From: a bacterium
GTDB taxonomy: Bacteria > Vulcanimicrobiota > Xenobia > Xenobiales > JADMJV01
Direction: 5' to 3'
Assembly: GCA_030149525.1 (NCBI GenBank)
Contig: JASBRJ010000290.1
Span: 1 to 64,000, forward strand
Length of the DNA: 64,000 bases
Shown here: positions 21,897 through 28,122 of the stretch, piece after piece
Numbering within the stretch: position 1 is the stretch's first letter
Layout: each line of letters opens with the position of its first letter
Program-made: the position numbers and the translations under genes
The notes under the pieces: generated by a model
Databases searched by the model: none
What the model was told of the DNA's origin: nothing
Seen by the model: only the letters and a program-made list of their open reading frames with translations

Positions 21897-24170
21897 ATGC
21901 GGCGGACGGCGATGTTTTACGGTCTCTTTGTGGCCATTTTGTTTTCCCCGTTTTTGCTTCGGGGTGAAGTGTTCGTTCCCGGTGATTTCCTGCCGTTTAT
22001 CTTTCCCTGGCGAGCCTACATCGATCATTTCCCTCACAACGTGGAACTGTTCGACGTGCCCGTCTTTTTCTATCCTCAGGATGTATTTCTCAACGCTTGG
22101 CTCAAGCGAGGAGAGATACCGCTCTGGAATCCTCACATTTTTAGCGGGCATCCAGCCGTAGCAAGCGGTCAATCGGGTTTTTTGTATCCCCCACGCCTAT
22201 TGTTCCACTGGCTCTTGAGCCCGGCGGTGGCTAAAACCTGGATCCAACTGCTCCATCTTTTGGGAATGGGGTTAGCAATGAACTGGTTTCTACGGATACG
22301 AGGATTCAAGCTTTATCCCGCTGCTCTGGGCGGATTGGTGTGGATGGGAAATACCTATGTCACTTCTTGGCTTGAGTTCGAACATGTCGCCATTGCGGGA
22401 ATGTTTTTGCCGCTGTTGTTGGTCTGCTTTGAGAAGGCCCTGAGCGGCAAGGAAGCTTTTTGGTGGGTTCTCCCGGTCCTTGGGGCCCTTTCCTTGCATA
22501 GCGGTCACTTGCAGATCAATCTTTACACGGGCGCCGTTTTTCTTGTCTACGCGGCGGTCCGTCTGGGGGAAGAAGGAAAGAGAGAGCATCTCCTTCGGTT
22601 TGCCGGAGTGGGGGTCCTAACCCTCGGCCTTGCCGCTCCAACCGTTTTGCCCTTTCTGGAGCTTCTTGGAGAATCTCAGCGAGCGCCGCTCAACCTTGAG
22701 GCCAATGCCGCCAGTCTGTGGTCGATCATCCTATCTTTTCTCTCTCCCGACCTGTTCGGAAATCCCACCAAAGGCTTTTTGTTCAACCGGTGTCCGGCTA
22801 ATCTCATTTACCCTGAGTTCGCCTGCTTTGTGGGAATGATTCCCCTCATCTTCGCCCTCTCAGCCCGGGGTAAGCAGGCTCGTATTTGGCAGGGGGTGGC
22901 GTTGTTCTGCGTGGTGGCAGCCTCGGCGCCGTTTGGGCTTTCACTGCCTCTTCTCAACCGTTTCATTCCCGGTCGGATTCTCTATTTTGTGGTTTTTTGC
23001 TTAGCCTATCTCGCCGCACTCGGGGCCGAGCAGGCTCAAGAGGATGCCGGTCCGGCGCGGAGAGTTTCTCTGGGTCTGGGAATGGTCTGGTTTCTCCTCC
23101 TGGGGGTGATCGGCTATCTTTTGGTCAATCCCCAGCCCCTGGTGGATTGGTGGAAGGCGAACCCGGGCGGCATCAAACTCCCGCCCCTGGACTCCAATCA
23201 GGAACAGTTCGTGAGCGCTTTCCGAGCCACTTACGCCTGGAATCTCCAATTACTTTTGCCGTTGTTAGGCTGCCTTCTTGTTTATGTAAGACCACGGGCC
23301 CACCAGGTGCTTCTCATTATCACCGGATTCGAACTCGTCTGGTTTGCCCTGGGTTTCAATACCACAGTCAAAGCGGATAGGATGCTCCCCACCACGCCGG
23401 AGATCGAGGCCATGACAACCTCTAATCGAGTGGCTTCCATTGAATGCGCTAACTACAACACGCTTACGCCCTACGGTCTATCTTTGGTCAACGGTTATGA
23501 GTCCCTGGTTTACCGTCGCTACGCTTTAGCGCTTTCTCAAGCCGAGCCGGAATCCAATCTCTCCATGCGCTCACTGTCCTTTCGCCGTCTGGATATGCCG
23601 ATTCTCGACGCCTTGAGCTTGGAGTATGCTCTGGTCCGACCCGGTAAGGATTTGGCCACACCGGGTTGGACGGTGGTCAAGAAGGGCGAAGGGGGAACGG
23701 TCTATCACAATGAGCAAGCCCAGCCTCGGGCGTTTCTCGTCGGGGCCGTCCGACCGCTCACCCAACTAACCGATCTGCAATCGTTTGACCCCTCTCAAGA
23801 GGCGTTTGTCACCGCCCCGCCACCGTCGGATTTAGCACCAGGTTCGGGGGAGGTTCGATGGCTCCACACAAAGGCCAACAGTCTGGAGCTTTCCGTCACC
23901 ACCGAAACCACCCAATTGCTGGTTGTCACCGATAGCTTCTATCCCGGTTGGACCTGTACCGTCGACGGGGCGCCGGTACCGCTGTTTGCCGCCAATCTGG
24001 CCTCGCGTGGTGTTTACCTTTCCCCCGGCACTCATATGGTGCGTATGGAGTTTCGGCCGGAGAGTTTTCGAAACGGGTTGGTTGGGGCCATGATCTCAGG
24101 GCTCGTTATCGGGATCTTGTGGCTTCTCCCTTTGGTGAGGAAGAGAGAGTCGTCAGCACCTGAGAAATAA
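21897..24170 (+). CDS. YfhO family multispanning membrane protein, 757 aa
   Basis: A GT-C-like integral membrane protein with about 12 helices. The N-terminus (FSPFLLRGEVFVPGDFLPF, then W...HNVELFDVPVFFYPQD, LKRGEIPLWNPHIFSGHP) is the standard YfhO pattern, with acidic residues in the first outer loop. The C-terminal soluble domain (VVTDSFYPGWTCTVDGAPVP, LSPGTHMVRMEF) precedes the last helix. In Firmicutes YfhO glycosylates teichoic acid; in this context, glycosylation of an envelope polymer is only inferred. Its last 65 bases overlap the convergent FlhA-like gene, an unusually long tail-to-tail overlap. Confidence 0.88.
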   Translation: MRRTAMFYGLFVAILFSPFLLRGEVFVPGDFLPFIFPWRAYIDHFPHNVELFDVPVFFYPQDVFLNAWLKRGEIPLWNPHIFSGHPAVASGQSGFLYPPRLLFHWLLSPAVAKTWIQLLHLLGMGLAMNWFLRIRGFKLYPAALGGLVWMGNTYVTSWLEFEHVAIAGMFLPLLLVCFEKALSGKEAFWWVLPVLGALSLHSGHLQINLYTGAVFLVYAAVRLGEEGKREHLLRFAGVGVLTLGLAAPTVLPFLELLGESQRAPLNLEANAASLWSIILSFLSPDLFGNPTKGFLFNRCPANLIYPEFACFVGMIPLIFALSARGKQARIWQGVALFCVVAASAPFGLSLPLLNRFIPGRILYFVVFCLAYLAALGAEQAQEDAGPARRVSLGLGMVWFLLLGVIGYLLVNPQPLVDWWKANPGGIKLPPLDSNQEQFVSAFRATYAWNLQLLLPLLGCLLVYVRPRAHQVLLIITGFELVWFALGFNTTVKADRMLPTTPEIEAMTTSNRVASIECANYNTLTPYGLSLVNGYESLVYRRYALALSQAEPESNLSMRSLSFRRLDMPILDALSLEYALVRPGKDLATPGWTVVKKGEGGTVYHNEQAQPRAFLVGAVRPLTQLTDLQSFDPSQEAFVTAPPPSDLAPGSGEVRWLHTKANSLELSVTTETTQLLVVTDSFYPGWTCTVDGAPVPLFAANLASRGVYLSPGTHMVRMEFRPESFRNGLVGAMISGLVIGILWLLPLVRKRESSAPEK

Positions 24171-24711
24171 CCTGGTCATCGCTACCTTCTGCTCGAAGAA
24201 GAGCGTTGAGCCAGAGTTTACGAGCGATCAGCCAATGCCCCTCGGCAACCACTTCCTTGAGAACCTTCTGGACGGTTCTGAGGCTGTGCTTGGTGCGGAC
24301 CTGCTTTACCAGATCGTTGTGGTAGATGGTCGACTGGTTGAGAATCTGATGTGTACGGCTTGTGGTGATAAATTCTTGTAGGTGGCCTGTGAGAAGGTAG
24401 TTGAGGTCTCGAATAACCTGCGCTTCGGAGCCTAATTGAACATACTCGCCCTCGACAACGATATTGCCGAGAGGGACTCCCTTGAGTCTCACCTCGATGG
24501 TGCGTGAGGGCAGATGGATGTCGTTTCGAAGTCTGACGGGGTTAAGGGAGAACCCCACCGAATTCTGGAAATCTCGTCGCCATTTTCTGAGGGCCGGAAG
24601 GAGAGGAGCAACCTTGTTCGGATCGACGAGGGGGAGGACGCCTCGGCTAAGCTTGAGCTCCAATTCATCTAGGGGATAGCCGGGAACGCCATCCCACTCG
24701 GGGTCGCGCAT
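24106..24711 (-). CDS. isolated FlhA/SctV-type C-terminal domain protein, 201 aa
   Basis: Residues about 12-75 match the start of the cytoplasmic domain of flagellar/type III export protein FlhA: DELELKLSRGVLPLVDP, a helix, then GFSLNPVRLRNDIHLPSRTIEVRLKGVPLG. After EGEYVQLG it jumps to a helical segment like the FlhA C-terminal subdomain (RDLNYLLTGHLQEFITTSRTHQILNQ). The usual GYTVVDP and GLPA.WI stretch is missing, so the middle subdomain is absent. Canonical FlhA is about 690 aa with eight helices; none precede it here. ATG 24711 has no ribosome site. The same frame is open back to about 24912, and a CTG overlaps the upstream stop (CTGA), so the true start is uncertain. Last gene of the membrane operon. 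Confidence 0.78.
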   Translation of the reverse strand: MRDPEWDGVPGYPLDELELKLSRGVLPLVDPNKVAPLLPALRKWRRDFQNSVGFSLNPVRLRNDIHLPSRTIEVRLKGVPLGNIVVEGEYVQLGSEAQVIRDLNYLLTGHLQEFITTSRTHQILNQSTIYHNDLVKQVRTKHSLRTVQKVLKEVVAEGHWLIARKLWLNALLRAEGSDDQVISQVLTTLSSSPKGEATRSR

Positions 24712-24803
24712 TGGGGCGGCCGGTTTGGTGGTGAGGACGTTCCAAATAGAGCTTGAGACACTGTGTAGGAGAGTGAAGAGTTGCTTGGGACCAGTCCTTT
24801 TGC

Positions 24804-25895
24804 TCAGTAGGATAACGGCAAATAGGCCGTTGCCAGCGACAACACCAGTAGGAGGATTGCCAGTCTGTATTCCGGCGAGCCTTCCGAACCCTGGTCCGGT
24901 GATCTTGGAACTTCAAGCAGCGGGTAACTGCGGTCGTTCCTGGAGTCGCGGAAACCCTTGCGAGGAGTCACATAGGGCGCCTCATCGGGTTGGTGGTCTT
25001 CATAGCTCCTGAGATCGGGAAAGACACGACGGTAGGGGTCCTTCCAGGGACCCGGATCACTCTTTAAGCATCCGGCCCACTCTTCCGACTTGAGGCATGC
25101 ACTCAGAACGGATGCTAAAAGGAGGCGGGTACCGGAGAACAAGCCCAGGCTGACGATGGTTTGGGGGGTGGGTTGCCAGGCAAGAAGAGCCACCATCAAG
25201 AGACGCTCCAGCCGACTCATCCAGAGGAGTTGTTCGAAGCAAACCTGGGGCGTTCTCTTGCCGTCCACAAAGCAGAAGTTGAGGCTGAGGCGAGGCAGGT
25301 GTTGACACCACAGAGCAGTCGCCGTTACCAGTCCGGAAATCGCTACTTCTCCGTAGGTCATCGAGCCCTTGTGGGAGGTCAAGCTTGCCGCGACGATCTG
25401 AAAAAGCCAGCAGGCTCTGGTTTCCCAAAGCAGGTCGTAGAGTCGAGAGGTGTAGCGACCCGGGTATCGTTTCACATCGCGTGTGAACTGCCACAGAAGA
25501 ACGCAGAAGCCAAGGGCTATCCAACTCCCGTCAATCCAAAGAAGGCAGAAGCCGACGAGAGCGGCGCCCACATGACGCCTCAAGAGGTAGGTTCTCCTTA
25601 GAATTCTTTTGGTGTTTGAGACAAAACTCGGGAGGAGCCTTGCGAAATGCACCAGACTTCCCGCTCCCTTCAGGCACGCCCAGAGTAGCAGAACGGCCGT
25701 TATTGACCGGAATATCTGCCCCTCGGTGAGCACCTGTCCTTGGACCAGGCCCGACATCCCCTGAGCCGGGACTGATTCCGGAAGAGAGAGCAATAGAAAC
25801 CTCAGGCTCAGAACAGTGACAAGAAATACCCAGCCGTCGTTAGTTCTATTCAGGTCTCCGGCTGCGTGATGTGTATCGACGACGCCGAACGACAT
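24804..25895 (-). CDS. hypothetical multispanning membrane protein, 363 aa
   Basis: About seven hydrophobic helices (e.g. WVFLVTVLSLRFLLLSLP, ALVGFCLLWIDGSWIALGF, LLASVLSACLK), a polar loop rich in Arg, Asp and Pro (about 285-340) and a last helix ending at the C-terminus (RLAILLLVLSLATAYLPLSY). No family recognised and no FHIPEP motif as in FlhA. Its ATG overlaps the TGA of the upstream gene by one base (TGATG). Because it is followed by the FlhA-type C-domain, the two together would mimic FlhA topology (helices, then cytoplasmic domain), split over two genes; this is inference. Confidence 0.72.
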   Translation of the reverse strand: MSFGVVDTHHAAGDLNRTNDGWVFLVTVLSLRFLLLSLPESVPAQGMSGLVQGQVLTEGQIFRSITAVLLLWACLKGAGSLVHFARLLPSFVSNTKRILRRTYLLRRHVGAALVGFCLLWIDGSWIALGFCVLLWQFTRDVKRYPGRYTSRLYDLLWETRACWLFQIVAASLTSHKGSMTYGEVAISGLVTATALWCQHLPRLSLNFCFVDGKRTPQVCFEQLLWMSRLERLLMVALLAWQPTPQTIVSLGLFSGTRLLLASVLSACLKSEEWAGCLKSDPGPWKDPYRRVFPDLRSYEDHQPDEAPYVTPRKGFRDSRNDRSYPLLEVPRSPDQGSEGSPEYRLAILLLVLSLATAYLPLSY

Positions 25896-26449
25896 CAGGT
25901 CACCGCCACCATGTCACGGCGTATACGCTCGGAAAGGAAAGCAAAGCTTGCTCCCGCAGCCAAGAAGGGGGGAGCCGACAACCACACCCAGCCCAGAACT
26001 GTGGCCAGCCAGTAGCTCAAACAAAGAGCTGCTAGAAGGTTGAGGCGTAGAGGGAGAGTTCGGTCGCTCAGGACTTTCTCATACGGTTGGGTAAGCCAGT
26101 TGTAGGCAAGACCAAGGAACGCACCGAGACACAGGACCACCAGGGCATATCCTGCGAACTCCGGCCAGGTCGCCGAGTATTCTACCAACTGATCCTGCGG
26201 CCGCAACTGTTCTCTGAGGATGGCTTTCTCAAAGCTTGTGCAGGAGCGATGAAAGACAAGACTGGTCCCTCCCAGACGTTGAGCAGGAGGGGTCAAAAGA
26301 TGATCGCGACTTGCTCCCGAGGCCTGGGAGGTGAGAACCAGGGGGCCGGAGTTTTGGACCCACCCGATGATCACCCACAGGGCGCTGAGAACAAGAAGGG
26401 TTTTGACCAAAGCTCGGACGGGGGTTGGGTCGAGAAACTTAAAACTCAT
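25895..26449 (-). CDS. hypothetical membrane protein, 184 aa
   Basis: Four predicted helices (LVKTLLVLSALWVIIGWV, FAGYALVVLCLGAFLGLAYNWL, LRLNLLAALCLSYWLATVLGWVWL, PPFLAAGASFAFL) with a polar, probably extracytoplasmic loop between the first two (about 35-90). No recognised domain; similarity to FliP/FliR-type export components was considered but no signature is visible. The ATG overlaps the preceding gene's TGA as ATGA, and its own TGA overlaps the next ATG, so it is translationally coupled on both sides. Confidence 0.7.
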   Translation of the reverse strand: MSFKFLDPTPVRALVKTLLVLSALWVIIGWVQNSGPLVLTSQASGASRDHLLTPPAQRLGGTSLVFHRSCTSFEKAILREQLRPQDQLVEYSATWPEFAGYALVVLCLGAFLGLAYNWLTQPYEKVLSDRTLPLRLNLLAALCLSYWLATVLGWVWLSAPPFLAAGASFAFLSERIRRDMVAVT

Positions 26450-28122
26450 GGTTTGAGGTCCTCAACGGCTCTCCCTTTGTGGCCCGCTTGTCTTTGGTGC
26501 TTTCTCAATCCGATCCCGTGATTGAAGCGCATACCGCACTCGGTACAAACATGTTGTTTCTTTAAGCGTACTTTGGGGCGGTTTGGACATTCCTCAAGAT
26601 GTTGTTTTCTTATGAAATCGGCGGCCTTCCCCAAGTCGCTAAGGACTCGAGTTTCTAACTCTTCAGCAGATGGGGAGCAGCGAGGGGTGTTGCCGGAGCC
26701 TCTAGATTTGTCGAAGAACTCCTGGATGACAGCTTTTCTCGTTTCCGGGGAGATGCGGGGCAATTGAGTGATCTCCAAGGTCACGGCCTGGACCTCTGCG
26801 GGCCCCAGTTCGGCGAAAAGTTGGGCCGAGACCTCGGGAGGCAAACTCATGAAGAGAATGGCGGATTTCTGTCTTGGTCGGAGACTCTTTACAAACTCAT
26901 CTATCTGCGGCTGCGGCTGCGGGGGCGTGGGTCTTAACTGTCGCTGCAAGGGATGGGGCTCAACAACCTTGGTGGAGCCCCAGGGCCGGCCTCCCACCAC
27001 CAGAGGAGACAGCACAGCCAACCAGACCATCAGAGCGGTCTGGTCGTGGCCCTGGAAAAATTCGCCTGCCACGGCGGGGAGGAGGAACCAGACCCCGGAA
27101 GCGATTCGAAGAACCGATTCACGCCGGGTGGAGGGGCCGCATGGCTTGAGAAAGGCGACCCGTCGCAAGAGAAAAACCTGAGCTATACGGCCGAATCCGT
27201 AGGCGCCCGCGATGGCAAGCGAACCTGCGAAGATAGAGACGCCTAATTTGAAACTCACAACACCGAGGCTCAGCACCACCAACGATTCCCAGCAACCCAT
27301 TTCAAACGATAGCTTACAGGAGCTTCGGACTTTCTTTTGAGTGAGAAGCTCGCCCGGCCATTCTCTTAATCCCATGAGGCAGAGAAAGCTCGCTGTGACT
27401 CCTCCGAAAAGCCCGGCGAAGGGAAGGCTGAGTTCTGCACTGATCGGGGCTGCGGCCAAAAGGAGTTTGGGGATCAACCACCCGGACCACAAGGCGCGTG
27501 CCATGTCGAGAAGCTCTATGGCGCCGGCCACCTTAGAGGGGTCTGGACTGGTCTTGTTCACCACGACGACGGCCCGTAAATAGGCCAGGGCAAACAAGGT
27601 TACGGCAAAATTGTTGGCTCCCAAGAGACCTGTTCCCACGCCGAGTACCAGGCAAAAAAGGATCAGGTGCTGGCGCGTCGCCGTGAGCCCATTTCGCAAG
27701 AGAGCCCCAGGTCTAAAGTGTTTCAGGTTTTGAATCAAGCAGAAGAAAAATGCGTAGCCAAGCCCCATTAAGAGACCAAATCGCCACAGTCCATAGCCGC
27801 TCACGGTCACGATTTTGGAAGTGCCTGAGGTGTGGTGGAACAGGTTGCGATTGAGAGTCTCTTGTCCGCTCGGAGTGAGATGATCAAAGACCAGGAAATT
27901 GCTCTTTGGCGTGGTGACAAGGTCTCCGTGGGCCAAACCCAGGGCTCGTTCCCAGGCAGAGGCCCCAAAATGCAGCCAAAGAATGGTCGTGATGCTGAGC
28001 AGAAGAAAGATGAGGTTCTTGTACGGGGCGATGAATTGTGAGATGCGCGCAAATCTCGAACGGGTCGAACTCATGCGGTTCGATGAGCCAGGGCGCATTC
28101 CGGTTTGAATTCCGGTAGCCAA
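26446..28122 (-). CDS. polytopic membrane protein with C-terminal FliG-N-type domain and C2H2 zinc finger, 558 aa
   Basis: First gene of the four-gene operon. Roughly eight to ten hydrophobic helices cover residues about 30-380. After a Pro/Gln-rich linker (about 390-410) comes a FliG N-terminal-like domain (about 415-474: RPRQKSAILFMSLPPEVSAQ, LGPAEVQAVTLEITQLPRIS, AVIQEFF), the part of the flagellar switch protein that binds the MS ring. The C-terminus carries CTEC-x12-H-x5-H (Cys526, Cys529, His542, His548), a classical C2H2 finger with basic residues around it. TTG 28122 is chosen for its AAAGGA site six bases upstream; ATGs at 28098 and 28074 lack one. I know of no described protein with this architecture. 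Confidence 0.78.
   Translation of the reverse strand: MATGIQTGMRPGSSNRMSSTRSRFARISQFIAPYKNLIFLLLSITTILWLHFGASAWERALGLAHGDLVTTPKSNFLVFDHLTPSGQETLNRNLFHHTSGTSKIVTVSGYGLWRFGLLMGLGYAFFFCLIQNLKHFRPGALLRNGLTATRQHLILFCLVLGVGTGLLGANNFAVTLFALAYLRAVVVVNKTSPDPSKVAGAIELLDMARALWSGWLIPKLLLAAAPISAELSLPFAGLFGGVTASFLCLMGLREWPGELLTQKKVRSSCKLSFEMGCWESLVVLSLGVVSFKLGVSIFAGSLAIAGAYGFGRIAQVFLLRRVAFLKPCGPSTRRESVLRIASGVWFLLPAVAGEFFQGHDQTALMVWLAVLSPLVVGGRPWGSTKVVEPHPLQRQLRPTPPQPQPQIDEFVKSLRPRQKSAILFMSLPPEVSAQLFAELGPAEVQAVTLEITQLPRISPETRKAVIQEFFDKSRGSGNTPRCSPSAEELETRVLSDLGKAADFIRKQHLEECPNRPKVRLKKQHVCTECGMRFNHGIGLRKHQRQAGHKGRAVEDLKP

Follow-up and report, generated by a model that had tools for sequence, protein, structure and literature searches.

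A four-gene membrane operon with FliF-, FliG- and FlhA-type modules and its fused relatives in Vulcanimicrobiota

Results

The window analyzed here is a 64,000-nucleotide stretch from a bacterium of the phylum Vulcanimicrobiota (assembly GCA_030149525.1, contig JASBRJ010000290.1, positions 1 to 64,000), and its minus strand carries four overlapping genes, W1 to W4, that encode predicted membrane proteins and a partial FlhA cytoplasmic domain. A FliF-type N-terminus, the N-terminal domain of FliG (FliG_N) and the cytoplasmic domain of FlhA (FlhA_C) run in this order from W1 to W4, as they do in a chimera of the sister genus in which all three are fused in one chain. Because the module order and shared motifs agree, W1–W4 and the fused chimera probably have a common origin. 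Our preferred reading, tentative and a little short of an even chance, is that W1–W4 encode one complex of the inner membrane, corresponding to the single-chain chimera but split and diverged, and that it would act as a membrane docking scaffold and not as a motor or an exporter.

Fused relatives in the sister genus

Searches with W1 and W4 returned FliG_N and FlhA_C matches in one open reading frame (ORF) in four genomes (G001, G002, G003 and G005). SZAS-1, ACE_ERE1, bin.189, MAG_50 and SCN18_25_8_15_R3_B_62_28 represent the sister genus, which falls in Candidatus Eremiobacterota (Vulcanimicrobiota); the genomes labelled G are partly metagenome-assembled. The fused ORFs lie at L070 8986-11499, L071 9059-11521, L072 6553-9027, L084 8677-11031 and L069 8662-10941, and the family further includes L118, L120, L121 and L124 (in G003 and G004, with one member without FliG_N in G001); L124 has no FliG_N. 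At least one member is present in each of the five sister-genus genomes, and there are several paralogue groups. The scan of genome contigs used FliG_N patterns, which fusions with a drifted FliG_N in other phyla could escape.

The fused proteins run from a FliF-like N-terminus through a transmembrane (TM) helix, a periplasmic domain resembling the third ring-building motif (RBM3) of FliF, TM helices, FliG_N, a TM helix, a second RBM-like periplasmic domain and a TM helix to FlhA_C. The FliF-like N-terminus is found in group 1 only and reads MNGISTGLRTGS in L070, and some members have a C2H2 finger between the FliG_N region and the next TM helix. The first periplasmic domain of L069 is placed in a coupled upstream gene that carries its own piece of FlhA_C, and the FlhA_C of L069 itself stops before subdomain D4. 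TM helices are few and the FlhA gate is missing from the fused proteins, which match the Pfam family FHIPEP only from about position 277 onwards. The ratio of nonsynonymous to synonymous substitution (dN/dS) between L071 and L072 was 0.25 overall, with 0.17 for the N-terminal/RBM part, 0.26 for FliG_N and 0.22 for FlhA_C, every domain being below 0.6; the fused proteins are under purifying selection. Their genes lie away from flagellar operons in all genomes seen. An earlier reading of the window from its letters (the sequence-only reading) had named the occurrence of the same genes elsewhere, as decayed fragments in an ordinary flagellar cluster, as a finding that would speak against it. In the relatives the modules are instead joined in one polypeptide, and we rejected a decayed cluster on the grounds of this fusion, of the selection on the fused genes and of their distance from flagellar operons.

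Full-length orphan FlhA genes with no other flagellar genes nearby were seen at L127 5640-7757, L070 1436-3541 and L129 3891-6008, and those of G001 and G003 are about 5-10 kb from a group 1 fused gene. A divergent orphan FlhA with a gate domain and a degraded C-domain lies at L116 8769-10328 (G001:C1).

Gene structure and coding evidence

The four minus-strand ORFs were found where the sequence-only reading had placed them, at 26446..28122 (W1), 25895..26449 (W2), 24804..25895 (W3) and 24106..24807 (W4). The overlaps said to join the first three genes are present, namely ATGA between W1 and W2 (26446..26449, minus) and TGATG between W2 and W3 (25893..25897, minus). A CTGA had been suggested as the link to the fourth gene; the string is there (24804-24807), but ATG, GTG and TTG are all absent from the W4 frame between the upstream stop and ATG 24711. 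Candidate starts for W4 are thus ATG 24711, CTG 24807 or a -1 frameshift out of W3. The conserved domain would be complete from ATG 24711, while CTG 24807 or the -1 shift would give W4 a positively charged linker right after the last TM helix of W3. The W4 frame upstream of the CTG (24804-24912, minus) reads LAGIQTGNPPTG, in which the FliF motif GIQTG occurs out of frame within W3, either by chance or as a relic. W1 probably starts at TTG 28122, which has an AAAGGA ribosome-binding site upstream.

In-frame synonymous codon scores were 0.069 for W1, 0.090 for W2, 0.040 for W3 and 0.096 for W4. These fall within the range of the other genes of the genome (median 0.088, 5th percentile 0.037), W3 being near the bottom. 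Over each whole ORF the annotated frame scores best in codon use, with the exception of the C-terminal part of W1, and in-frame stops are absent over the 4 kb of W1–W4. Since codon use is native and the annotated frames score above the others, we take W1–W4 to be genes and not chance frames.

Modules of W1 to W4

W1 (558 amino acids from the TTG start) combines a FliF-type N-terminus, several predicted TM helices, FliG_N and a C2H2 zinc finger. Its FliF motif, MATGIQTGMRPGS (28084..28122, minus), lies in an N-terminus that reads MATGIQTGMRPGSSNR; the genome's own flagellar FliF starts MATGIQTGMNRGSRSG, and the FliFs of relatives in the order start MATGIQTGMRTGS. This type of N-terminus is private to the order and is common to W1, the group 1 fused proteins and the order's FliFs. 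GIQTG was confined to FliFs among 829 called proteins, where W1 was called from a later start. The FliG_N domain (amino acids 412-478; 26689..26889, minus) matched Pfam at 6.9e-15, and in a six-frame search of its own genome it was as strong a match (2.7e-15) as the true flagellar FliG (1.5e-15). Neither the middle nor the C-terminal torque domain of FliG passed the Pfam cut-off in W1, where FliG_N alone did so, and RBM1, RBM2 and the C-terminal FliG-binding tail of FliF were not found. The zinc finger (26488..26553, minus) is below the Pfam cut-off (zf-C2H2, E 0.011); the stretch that holds it (amino acids 515-555) shares 66% identity with the beginning of a second protein encoded in this genome, and a finger occupies the same place, behind the FliG_N region, in W1, L084, L120 and L121. 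One member of the operon had been described as ending in a FliG_N-like domain; the domain is real, but it is followed by the finger, which had been overlooked together with the FliF N-terminus.

W2 (184 amino acids) consists of a predicted TM helix, a periplasmic loop and further TM helices, and it stands where the fused relatives have their second RBM unit; no Pfam family scored above the cut-off. W3 (363 amino acids, a predicted polytopic membrane protein) matched no Pfam family either, and its last predicted TM helix ends at its stop codon, immediately ahead of W4. The three multispanning proteins of the sequence-only reading are W1–W3, whose membrane topology is predicted from hydropathy only. 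W4 matched FHIPEP at 3.3e-15, the best stretch being FHIPEP 329-405. It had been called a 201-residue FlhA C-domain homologue; the homology held, but it covers part of FlhA_C and its length is 201 (ATG 24711) or 233 amino acids (CTG 24807). Both the FlhA and the FliG profile matches were highly significant. The transmembrane gate domain of FlhA/SctV was not matched in W4.

Among the window proteins scanned with Pfam there was no FliP, FliQ, FliR, FlhB or FliI and no secretin, ATPase or needle gene of an injectisome, and the remaining called genes were inspected by eye, in agreement with the statement that the window holds no other flagellar or secretion gene.

Periplasmic domains

The alpha-beta-beta-alpha-beta fold is that of the ring-building motif (PMC8092281). 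An AlphaFold model of the fused ACE_ERE1 protein, weak overall (mean pLDDT 64.6), placed domains of this topology at 63-131 and 367-428, with TM helices on both sides of each; modeled alone, the first domain had a core pLDDT of about 90. Its highest-probability and lowest-deviation Foldseek matches were FliF MS-ring/RBM3 structures (8z5v 0.99, 7cg7 0.98, 6sd3 and 6sd1 0.97, 8ftf 0.95) with root-mean-square deviations of 1.6-1.8, the E-values not being significant at so small a size. Foldseek with the full fused model gave only FlhA_C/SctV_C structures at the top, and searching the sequences of solved structures with the RBM profile produced no match. The group 1 N-terminal part aligned with the order's FliFs by hhalign at RBM3 (E 2.9e-4, with a probability of only 40%), and the first periplasmic domain of the relatives scored a shuffle z of 6.1 against FliF RBM3. 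With a profile of nine family domains, all eight C267-type FliFs ranked 10-23, directly behind the nine members, and the C177-type FliF ranked 212; in whole-genome searches with the family profile, the weak outside matches in G006-G009 fell in FliF. There is thus good support for deriving the first periplasmic domain of the fused relatives from FliF RBM3. The second would be RBM-like by the same predicted topology only.

A possible truncated RBM in the window is the predicted periplasmic loop of W1 (amino acids 56-112; 27787..27957, minus). None of 300 shuffles did as well as this loop against the P1 domain of L097 (z 4.6), yet it ranked 117 of 574 with a family profile built without W1. The W2 loop likewise outdid all 300 shuffles against the W1 loop. 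We claim no RBMs in the window because the family profile did not recover W1, W2 or W3. An alternative placement of the relatives' periplasmic domain, on W1 214-330 by MAFFT, was unsupported by shuffles and was rejected.

Evidence weighing against the kinship and the scaffold

By FlhA_C identity W4 comes closest to a fused protein (30%), and the window genome yielded no separate fused gene. Several results pull the other way. W1–W4 are four overlapping ORFs and not a single open frame, and the suggested look for the four-gene order in related genomes brought up fused proteins with the modules in matching order, but the exact operon in this one genome only. A search of 149 genomes of the phylum with the concatenated membrane parts of W1–W3 gave the query itself and one weak stray match, and the family profile built without W1 missed all three proteins; comparing W2 and W3 with the fused proteins by BLASTP gave nothing significant. 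The FliG_N of W1 is 69% identical to the flagellar FliG of its own genome, against about 40-44% for the fused proteins; this closeness to the flagellar protein could reflect a separate origin or repair from fliG. The FliG_N region of L084, L120 and L121 (groups 2 and 3) has itself drifted below Pfam detection. In the FlhA_C tree W4 has a branch length of 3.1 changes per site and no firm place. W4 covers profile positions 7-93 and, weakly, 150-194 of the 345 of FlhA_C; with the domain borders generally assigned to FlhA, this alignment corresponds to D1 and part of D3, D2 and D4 being absent. Canonical chaperone docking by W4 is unlikely because D2 and D4 are missing.

Flagellar loci of the host and spread of the modules

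The suggested check for a flagellar locus in the host was positive. Flagellar operons lie elsewhere in the genome, on C27, C177 and C267, with two full-length FlhA genes (C27 and C177), and the host is not a flagellum-less relic. Eight further FHIPEP matches in this genome, W4 among them, have no gate domain, and FliP is present in a single copy, in the C27 flagellar set. There are two sets of fliQ/fliR/flhB/flhA (G000:C27, C177) against the one fliP found. Between fliF and fliG in the flagellar operon on C267 there is a gene for a 365-amino-acid protein that carries FliG_N three times (L030 4225-5322, G000:C267), and in G006 a gene with a FliG_N match is at the same place (L092 13866-14720).

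The window genome has 10 FHIPEP matches; the counts are 11-16 for the sister genus, 14 for G033, 11 for G020 and 8 for G026, whereas the two largest other families have 1 or 2 in most of their genomes. Most of the additional copies consist of the C-domain alone, and their partners include TPR (L077), ankyrin with FliG_N (L122), DUF4419 (L083) and predicted signal peptides (L115). FliG_N and FlhA_C are in one chain also in G006, G019, G020 and G033, from other families of the phylum, and this recurrence argues against chance.

Other arrangements were also seen. FlhA_C proteins with predicted signal peptides, possibly periplasmic, are at L115 9825-11973 (a tandem pair) and L126 9691-10731, and a DUF4139/DUF4140 protein has FliG_N inserted mid-protein at L073 8784-11036 and L075 8695-10902. 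A stand-alone FlhA_C protein of about 435-460 amino acids is conserved across the phylum (L023 5953-7843, L109 8520-10441, L113 9673-11004, L114 8674-10377, L082 133-1470); its gene comes after a small gene in three of these loci, lipoprotein-like in two.

Discussion

In flagella, RBM domains form rings, FlhA_C forms nonamers, and FliG_N binds FliF and self-associates. The chimera joins parts of three proteins, taking the N-terminus, TM helices and RBM3-like periplasmic domains from FliF, the N-terminal domain alone from FliG and the cytoplasmic domain alone from FlhA. Its RBM-like domains may let the scaffold oligomerize on the periplasmic side, in a ring or another oligomer, with FliG_N and FlhA_C exposed to the cytoplasm as docking surfaces. 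Such a scaffold could gather partners from the cytoplasm, and the phylum's many soluble FlhA_C and FliG_N proteins would be the most plausible candidates. Neither export by the standard route nor rotation is expected, because the FlhA gate, FliPQR/FlhB, the FliI ATPase and the FliG torque domain are absent. The proposal that these parts were repurposed into an envelope machine is supported by relatives in which the same modules are fused, selected and off the flagellar operons, but machine may be too strong a word for a complex that has neither a gate nor an ATPase nor a torque domain and whose exact four-gene operon is known from this genome only. More broadly, and with less assurance than the scaffold itself, it is conceivable that the Vulcanimicrobiota made the flagellar base a toolbox, in which FlhA_C and FliG_N spread as interaction modules and the FliF-FliG-FlhA chimera became their membrane assembly platform.

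The strongest rival, which we regard as unlikely, is that the complex joins the real flagellar base, mixing with the FliF, FliG and FlhA rings, and regulates or limits flagellar assembly or switching. The flagellar loci of the host, the FliF N-terminus and closely flagellar FliG_N retained by W1, the grouping of the relatives' FlhA_C with the C27-type flagellar FlhA, and the position of a group 1 gene near a full-length orphan FlhA in two sister genomes all fit such a role. However, in no genome seen are the genes near flagellar operons, and pairings of FlhA_C or FliG_N with ankyrin, TPR, DUF4419 or predicted signal peptides are unlike flagellar use.

It is less probable still that domain shuffling left W1–W4 behind as a decaying or neutral by-product and that function is confined to the fused proteins of the sister genus. 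The fast divergence of W4, its loss of D2 and D4, the missing standard start codon at the W3/W4 overlap and the membrane parts of W1–W3 without homologues are what such decay would leave, but four open frames over 4 kb with native codon use, tight stop/start overlaps and the module order of the fused proteins are not easily reconciled with it. A reduced, independent transport or secretion machine, in which W1–W3 form a channel in place of FliPQR/FlhB and W4 acts as the receptor for substrates, would suit predicted polytopic proteins encoded with an FlhA_C homologue directly behind the last TM helix of W3, but it is very improbable given that there is no FHIPEP transmembrane domain and no FliP, FliQ, FliR, FlhB or FliI family in the scanned window proteins, that the lone FliP belongs to the C27 flagellar set, that W4 has no D2 and that the TM helices of the fused relatives are too few for a gate.

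Reuse of flagellar parts for secretion is already known; in the open-access literature searched we found no report of motorless, gateless flagellar parts stitched into one selected membrane protein. If the toolbox reading is true, this would be an envelope complex of a new class, derived from the flagellum but with neither motor nor exporter. FlhA assembly in the flagellum requires FliF (PMC8092281), and in Chlamydia the C-terminus of FliF is bound by FlhA_C (PMC2830194); here pieces of FliF and FlhA are covalently joined, and the fused proteins could serve for studying the mutual contacts of FliF, FliG_N and FlhA_C without the rest of the flagellum.

The type III injectisome (SctJ, SctV) likewise has RBM folds and an FlhA_C/SctV_C domain, but secretin, needle, ATPase and gate genes were all missing among the scanned window proteins. 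With the flagellar basal body the likeness is one of the same three families, the FliF N-terminus, the RBM3-like domain (in the relatives), FliG_N and FlhA_C being recognized by sequence, whereas here they are fragments in one chain or operon with no FliM/N, rod or hook genes alongside. The flagellar remnants of chlamydiae (FliF, FlhA, FliI; PMC2830194) are also flagellar base proteins retained for another purpose, but they are separate proteins that include FliI and an FlhA with its TM domain and have no FliG_N, and the window host has flagellar loci as well. FliF-FliG fusion proteins (e.g. PMC11481574) similarly hold FliF and FliG in one chain, but those stay in a flagellar context, whereas here the chain has gained FlhA_C and lost the FliG torque domain along with most of FliF.

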